Shown here: one piece after another, positions 1,892 to 3,085 of the stretch
How the letters are laid out: the number at the start of each line of letters is the position of its first letter
Numbering within the stretch: position 1 is the first letter of the stretch
NCBI GenBank assembly: GCA_031272775.1
Contig: JAISTB010000013.1
Coordinates: 1-38,182, forward strand
Reading direction: 5' to 3'
Source: Fusobacteriaceae bacterium
GTDB lineage: Bacteria; Fusobacteriota; Fusobacteriia; Fusobacteriales; Fusobacteriaceae
Length of the DNA stretch: 38,182 bases
Made by a program: the position numbers and the translations under genes
The notes under the pieces: generated by a model
Database searches by the model: none
What the model saw: the letters and a program-made list of their open reading frames with translations, nothing else
Told to the model about the DNA's origin: nothing

Positions 1892-1963
1892 CGGCTCATT
1901 TCAAAACAAAATACGGCTCATTTTTTGTAAAATTTGAGCCGAAAAGGAAGTTCCCGTGAGCCG
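1892..1963 (+). promoter_or_regulatory. Nested dyad of four 7-bp boxes, putative operator
   Basis: CGGCTCA occurs at 1892-1898 and 1914-1920, and its complement TGAGCCG at 1935-1941 and 1957-1963. Start-to-start spacing within each pair is 22 bp, two helical turns, and both inverted pairs share one dyad centre at 1927.5. This lies just downstream of the Fic promoter. The arrangement suggests two dimers binding co-operatively on the same DNA face. The obvious candidate ligand is the winged-helix domain of the Fic protein itself. Geometry is observed; the binding partner is inferred. Confidence 0.65.
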
Positions 1964-1980: not shown

Positions 1981-3024
1981 ATGCTGTCGGAACGTGAAAA
2001 AGACATTTTGGAATTGATTCGAGAAAAGAAATCCTGCGCTACCGGCGAGCTTTATAACGCGATGAATAGCAGCAACCCGGTCAGCCTCGCAACCGTAAAA
2101 CGGGATTTGAAAAAACTCGCGGACAACCGCCTGATCTTACCGGTTGGAAAAGGAAAGACTTCACGTTACATTCTGTCGCCGGAATATCAAATTCTCTATC
2201 CGATCAATATTCAGGAATACTTTTCAAAAGAAATTGACGCCCGAAGCATAAAGGAAAACTTCAATCGGGAACTGTTGCGGACAATTTTGCCGGAAATCCG
2301 GATTCTTTCAACGGAAGAACAGGTTAAACTCCGCAATCTGCAAAGCATTTTCAGAGATCATGTCGCTGAGCTCGGCTCTTGCGGTTATCGCAAAGAAATG
2401 GAAAGACTGGCTATCGATCTCAGTTGGAAATCTTCACAGATTGAAGGCAATACCTATACCCTCCTGGAAACGGAACGGTTGTTGAAAGAAAAAAAGACCG
2501 CATCCGGAAAAACGAAGGAAGAAGCGATTATGCTCCTCAACCACAAAGAAGCGATGGATTTTATCCTGGAAAACCCCGATGTTCTGATACAACCCACGAT
2601 CTCCGCCGTTGAAGATATCCACAGCATTTTGATCAAAGAATTGGATGTGGATCGGAATATCCGCTCACGCCGCATGGGAATCACCGGTACGAACTACAGA
2701 CCTTTGGATAATGAATTTCAGATCCTGGAAGCCATGAGAGACATGTGCAAGATTCTGAAAGACCGGGATGTATTTGAGCAGGCCATGCTCTCACTTCTTT
2801 TGATTTCCTACATTCAGCCCTTTATGGACGGGAACAAGCGTACGTCCAGGATTGTCAGCAACGCGATCCTGATCGGGAACGGATACTGCCCCCTTTCTTA
2901 CCGGACAGTGGACTCTTCCGATTTTAAAATGGCTGTTCTATTATTCTATGAACAAAACAATCTTTCTGCGTTTAAAGAAATATTTATTGACCAGTACGAA
3001 TTTGCGGTGAAATCGTATTTTTGA
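1981..3024 (+). CDS. wHTH-Fic domain protein with substituted catalytic motif
   Basis: A 347-residue protein. Residues 1-65 form a winged helix-turn-helix (SEREKDILELI, then SLATVKRDLKKLADNRLI and the wing GKGKTSRYIL). A Fic N-terminal region follows with an intact class II inhibitory motif S151-S-Q-I-E-G-N157. The Fic core is at 279-290: Q-P-F-M-D-G-N-K-R-T-S-R. The usual motif is HxFx(D/E)GN(G/K)RxxR. The His that deprotonates the target hydroxyl for AMP transfer is Gln279 here, while Asp283, Gly284, Asn285, Arg287 and Arg290 are kept. Nucleotide binding may thus survive without normal AMPylation. A DNA-binding, nucleotide-sensing repressor role is an inference, supported by the operator-like boxes upstream. 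The start is fixed by AGGAGGG at 1970-1976. Confidence 0.85.
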   Translation: MLSEREKDILELIREKKSCATGELYNAMNSSNPVSLATVKRDLKKLADNRLILPVGKGKTSRYILSPEYQILYPINIQEYFSKEIDARSIKENFNRELLRTILPEIRILSTEEQVKLRNLQSIFRDHVAELGSCGYRKEMERLAIDLSWKSSQIEGNTYTLLETERLLKEKKTASGKTKEEAIMLLNHKEAMDFILENPDVLIQPTISAVEDIHSILIKELDVDRNIRSRRMGITGTNYRPLDNEFQILEAMRDMCKILKDRDVFEQAMLSLLLISYIQPFMDGNKRTSRIVSNAILIGNGYCPLSYRTVDSSDFKMAVLLFYEQNNLSAFKEIFIDQYEFAVKSYF

Positions 3025-3056: not shown

Positions 3057-3085
3057 TTGCTCCCCGCGTGGGCGGGGGTGATCCC
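3057..3085 (+). repeat. Solitary type I-E-like CRISPR repeat
   Basis: This 29-nt sequence differs from the repeat at 1491-1519 only in its first few bases and its last base, and it contains the same CCCCGCGTGGGCGGGGGTGA core. One period downstream (about 3118-3146) only a vague C-rich resemblance is seen, so it stands alone. It begins 32 bases after the Fic stop codon. With the fragment at 1430-1568 it brackets the Fic gene. Confidence 0.7.

Follow-up and report, generated by a model that had tools for sequence, protein, structure and literature searches.

Fic proteins have been studied as AMP-transferring enzymes and toxins. The closest known system is CccR of Yersinia pseudotuberculosis, a Fic-HTH protein that binds inverted boxes at its own promoter and represses itself (PMC9755527). 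Its operator comprises two 10-bp boxes with a 26-bp spacer; the protein itself is a secreted effector, catalytically active, with His192 in its FIC motif and its HTH at the C-terminus (PMC9755527). Sofic, CbFic2, and SoFic are dimeric active AMPylases with a catalytic His, in which the Fic domain is joined to a C-terminal domain (a winged helix-turn-helix, or wHTH, in CbFic2 and SoFic); CbFic2 and SoFic also carry an N-terminal DUF4172 (PMC12249575, PMC10628234). The passages of these papers considered here report no operator array, and CbFic2 was assayed on random DNA (PMC12249575, PMC10628234). The nearest solved structures, by sequence and by fold, are those of FICD/HYPE (PDB 4u0u, 6i7g), a eukaryotic AMPylase/deAMPylase with a catalytic His.

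We describe a related locus in a 38,182-nucleotide stretch of Fusobacteriaceae DNA (the window). Its wHTH-Fic protein, P0001, shares with CccR the combination of an HTH and a Fic domain with a class II inhibitory motif (PMC9755527), and here too inverted boxes lie at the gene's own promoter, as expected of a Fic-HTH autorepressor. In contrast to CccR, the wHTH is N-terminal, the boxes number four in ++-- order (two direct, then two inverted), and Gln stands in place of the catalytic His. The PADLOC SoFic model matches the Fic part of P0001 (E 5e-16), whereas the architecture differs from that of SoFic, CccR, and CbFic2: the wHTH occupies residues 1-65, and a domain profile search of P0001 gave no match to DUF4172. 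The inhibitory-helix layout is shared with FICD/HYPE, whose match lacks a DNA-binding domain. Among the CC-licensed literature, we found no paper on an N-terminal wHTH-Fic(Gln) family. We regard the locus as a variant among Fic-HTH autorepressors, set apart by its unusual operator and by a Fic domain that is probably non-catalytic.

The four-box array and the protein encoded behind it

All four boxes are exact copies of CGGCTCA, and all are conserved in homologues. Box 1 (1892-1898) and box 2 (1914-1920) lie on the forward strand 22 bp apart; box 3 (1935-1941) and box 4 (1957-1963) lie inverted, on the reverse strand, again 22 bp apart. The box centres are therefore spaced 22/21/22 bp, each step close to two helical turns, and both pairs of boxes share a single dyad at 1927.5, with 21 bp separating the inner starts. 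The array is unusual by the arrangement of its boxes, not by the word: CGGCTCA occurs 10 times in the window versus 6.1 expected, while the window contains one exact nested ++-- quartet of equally stepped 7-mers and 200 Markov-simulated windows contain none.

A consensus promoter precedes the array, and the gene at 1981-3024 follows it. The -35 hexamer TTGACA (1850-1855) and the -10 hexamer TACAAT (1873-1878), both on the forward strand, jointly match 11 of 12 consensus positions across a 17-bp spacer. Transcription would start near 1885, and the array would then span approximately +7 to +79. On the same strand, a Shine-Dalgarno sequence, AGGAGG (1970-1975), precedes the ATG at 1981. A preliminary description of this DNA had claimed a symmetric layout with 22-bp steps, a regularity far above chance, and a position just past a consensus promoter, all of which are borne out. 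One correction concerns the Fic protein as the sole nearby regulator: a weak candidate for a MazE/AbrB-like antitoxin, also a possible DNA-binding protein, is encoded upstream (93-452).

P0001 (347 aa; 1981-3024, forward strand) is the proposed binder of the boxes. It belongs to the Fic fold (PF02661, E 3.2e-12; 47.5 bits, cut-off 24), and its N-terminus matches HTH_DeoR (E 4.4e-5). An AlphaFold2 model built with 36 relatives reaches a pLDDT of 87 and matches FICD, the nearest solved fold, with a TM of about 0.6. On the HTH_DeoR match and this model, the wHTH is assigned to 1981-2175. Its third helix, LATVKRDLKKLAD (residues 36-48; 2086-2124), a helix in the AlphaFold2 model, is the presumed recognition helix, and box class associates with its residues 37-41. 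Further along the same strand, SSQIEGN (residues 151-157; 2431-2451) fits the class II inhibitory motif (S/T)xxxE(G/N) and lies N-terminal to the Fic motif QPFMDGNKRTSR (2815-2850), where alignment to FICD places Gln279 at the position of the catalytic His. The consensus HPFxDGN(G/K)R accordingly reads QPFMDGNKR, and P0001 lacks the catalytic His that marks AMPylating Fic proteins in HxFx(D/E)GN(G/K)R.

These features extend to the family: Gln occupies the catalytic position in 46 of 46 readable homologues, and (S)(S/A)(Q/E)IEGN is likewise invariant among them. Loss of the catalytic His argues against ordinary AMP transfer, and conservation of the pocket residues argues that something is still bound. 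The pattern suggests a family of transcription factors rather than AMPylases, with a Fic domain that is probably non-catalytic; motif conservation, our sole ground on this point, would be consistent with nucleotide sensing.

Conservation of the array and its pairing with one gene

Homologues were drawn from a genome-contig search, a sample of the phylum Bacteroidota, and a sample of 395 genomes of one class, 38 of which carry the gene. The expectation that homologous wHTH-Fic genes would be preceded by the same boxes, raised in the preliminary description, was confirmed. In the first homologue set, all nine upstream regions (9/9) contain four GCTC(A) boxes in ++-- order, spaced 22/20/22 except for one at 21/20/22. 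Across a set of 48 Clostridia and Bacteroidota homologues, window included, an 8-mer direct repeat at lag 22 precedes the gene in 42/48 loci where shuffles give 2.5, and no other lag between 12 and 60 comes close. The spacing is strictest where all four GCTCA boxes are perfect (30 loci): the step from box 3 to box 4 is 22 bp in 30/30 and that from box 1 to box 2 in 28/30, and the inner gap, which varies by 1 bp, is 14 in 27/30. L064 has one degenerate box, and L090, whose gene contains an internal stop, misfits the pattern. The upstream regions of L039 and L043 hold more than four boxes, apparently as duplicated arrays.

A more distant wHTH-Fic group (30-36% identical, 430-480 aa, motif LQ(P/A)FxD(V/I)NKR) is often preceded by direct repeats spaced 20-21 bp and built of different box words; 7 of 15 show them at lag 21, with 0.7 expected. 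This group consists of L003, L004, L045-L054, and L059-L061, and every readable Fic motif in it has Gln.

Could the boxes act in RNA, with the 5' leader forming a nested hairpin through which translation or termination is controlled? They lie downstream of the predicted transcription start, and the window's leader does adopt such a fold (-28.8 kcal/mol, z -2.9), but such folding is expected of any palindromic operator, and a hairpin does not require box 1 to equal box 2. Variation among the boxes ignores pairing: the variable purine of box 2 agrees with box 3, its pairing partner, in 19/30 loci, and with the non-pairing boxes 1 and 4 in 21/30 and 20/30. In addition, roughly half of the Bacteroidota loci have TAnnTTTG, which we take to be the Bacteroidetes -7 box, immediately before box 4; promoters so placed would leave boxes 1-3 upstream and untranscribed. 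Despite the stable fold, we rejected a leader structure as barely credible.

The array pairs almost exclusively with the wHTH-Fic gene. A perfect four-box array was found in 27/395 genomes of the class sample, and a reversed control pattern in 0/395. In 21 of these 27 genomes it lies beside an intact gene, in 3 beside the gene's wreckage (L102, L103, and L106, where degraded pieces adjoin it), and in 3 alone (L104:1553, L105:2544, and L107:2526, with no detectable wHTH-Fic remnant). In 28 further carrier genomes, a three-box pattern gave a single match away from the gene (G664:C99). A second array, spaced 20/20/22, lies at L055:2815-2880, some 200 bp ahead of a DUF2200 gene and on the same contig as a wHTH-Fic gene; it is possibly a second target or a relic. 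L056 is a relic whose first two boxes are fused by an apparent 22-bp deletion. The orphan arrays and the array beside DUF2200 indicate that other targets or relics exist; usually, however, a family member's own gene is its sole detected target. A wider regulon was also sought and rejected as a reading: the window's own genome holds this single array and no second site, and relatives hold almost none. No conserved partner gene was found beside the homologues.

Paired change of helix and boxes, and a proposed mechanism

The common third helix, (Y/L/I)AT(V/I/L)KR, accompanies (G/A)GCTCA boxes. Where the helix differs, the boxes usually differ as well: AKTTKR with GGACA (L042), STTLKL with CGGTC (L086), ESTIRK with TTCTGCT (L091), and PTLNR with TCCTATC (L089, L092, and L093). 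These loci retain the 22-bp step, and the quartet scores of L042, L086, L089, L091, and L092 were reached by shuffles only 0-1 times in 500. Box registers in the divergent loci were assigned partly by eye; in L093 the automatic search chose other words, and the TCCTATCA boxes were read by eye. The boxes are altered in 5/5 loci with altered K40-R41; among 42 loci that keep these residues, GCTCA is kept in 40/42 and the boxes are changed in 2/42 (Fisher p 1.4e-5, ignoring kinship between loci). Since these two, L042 and L090, combine the ordinary K40-R41 with changed boxes, K40-R41 alone do not set specificity. On a tree built from the Fic domain with the wHTH left out, box class changed at least five times. 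A Bacteroides finegoldii plasmid copy (L058:3362-4273) has a truncated winged helix and no boxes.

This paired change is the best evidence that the wHTH-Fic protein would read the boxes; the helix-box association, the gene pairing, and the conservation together make the encoded protein very probably the binder. They weigh against a different host regulator, for instance the MazE/AbrB-like antitoxin or some global factor. One weak candidate, MazE-like, is indeed encoded 1.5 kb upstream, but the array accompanies the Fic gene in different phyla where no neighbouring gene is conserved, is found almost solely at that gene, and alters together with the recognition helix of the Fic protein; we judge binding by another regulator highly improbable.

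Our main reading, to which we assign a probability of about 0.78, is that the boxes are an operator dedicated to autoregulation: the wHTH-Fic protein encoded downstream would bind them and repress its own promoter. The operator proposed in the preliminary description, and autoregulation through it, gain indirect support from homologues that carry the boxes and from boxes that change along with the helix. As many as four winged helices would line one face of the DNA at intervals of two helical turns, arranged as two direct-repeat pairs that face the central dyad. In the window, the bound array (approximately +7 to +79) would keep RNA polymerase from escaping the promoter or elongating; among Bacteroidota relatives the array often overlaps the promoter, and with TAnnTTTG directly before box 4, bound protein would cover it. 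Both positions fit negative autoregulation, and promoter occlusion is the likely mechanism. The Fic domain, whose nucleotide-pocket and inhibitory motifs are otherwise conserved, probably serves as an oligomerisation and sensing module, with a ligand, putatively ATP or a related nucleotide, setting the level of repression. Binding, repression, cooperativity, and ligand sensing are all inferred.

The same protein might instead activate its gene, or both activate and repress it. Phased direct repeats can serve activators, and sequence does not reveal the sign of regulation; yet an array over or just downstream of the promoter occupies the usual place of a repressor, and CccR, a characterised relative of the Fic-HTH type, is an autorepressor (PMC9755527). 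Activation is therefore unlikely, and repression is preferred.

As to geometry, the earlier proposal of two dimers on one face of the helix stands in part: the single face gains indirect support, but nested dimers are only one way of pairing the boxes. In the TCCTATC branch the inner gap is shorter by about one helical turn, if the boxes are read in the same register. Together with the constant direct 22-bp step, this favours neighbouring direct boxes as a rigid unit, and direct-repeat pairs placed head to head would fit at least as well as nested dimers.

More broadly, and with rather less than even confidence, we propose a widespread Fic-fold family that has given up the catalytic His for Gln and now comprises autoregulated, possibly nucleotide-sensing transcription factors that assemble serially on boxes two helical turns apart. 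Helix and boxes would change together to yield new specificities. Each such gene would be a self-contained, mobile switch with the Fic domain as its sensor, and might serve in defence or stress. Retention of the fold and inhibitory motif, loss of the His, and a strict, co-evolving operator offer a direct test of the Fic domain as a transcription-factor sensor. Repeated changes of box and helix at fixed spacing are natural experiments on winged-helix retargeting, and the operator provides a DNA signature for finding family members and decayed relics.

Origin and surroundings of the window gene

Among 98 genomes of the window's own phylum, no homologue was found beyond the window itself. The window copy groups with L005, from a Clostridiales MAG, inside a mostly Bacteroidota clade, and this grouping suggests gene transfer. 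IMG/VR yielded no close viral homologue; phages gave one distant match, and plasmids one close copy, with the wHTH truncated.

Upstream, 93-747 holds a probable toxin-antitoxin pair, in which the MazE/AbrB-like antitoxin candidate (93-452, a weak match) is followed by a ParE-like toxin gene (PF15781, E 1.1e-22). The Fic gene is also flanked by a CRISPR type I-E-like repeat, TCCCCGCGTGGGCGGGGGTGATCC, at 1495-1518 and 3061-3084, with partial copies at approximately 1438-1457 and 1552-1567. The partial repeat at 1552 stops short and is followed by a full one at 3061, as would be expected had a degenerate array received the Fic segment by insertion. Elsewhere in the genome, the repeat occurs as one further, solitary copy (C18:3241).
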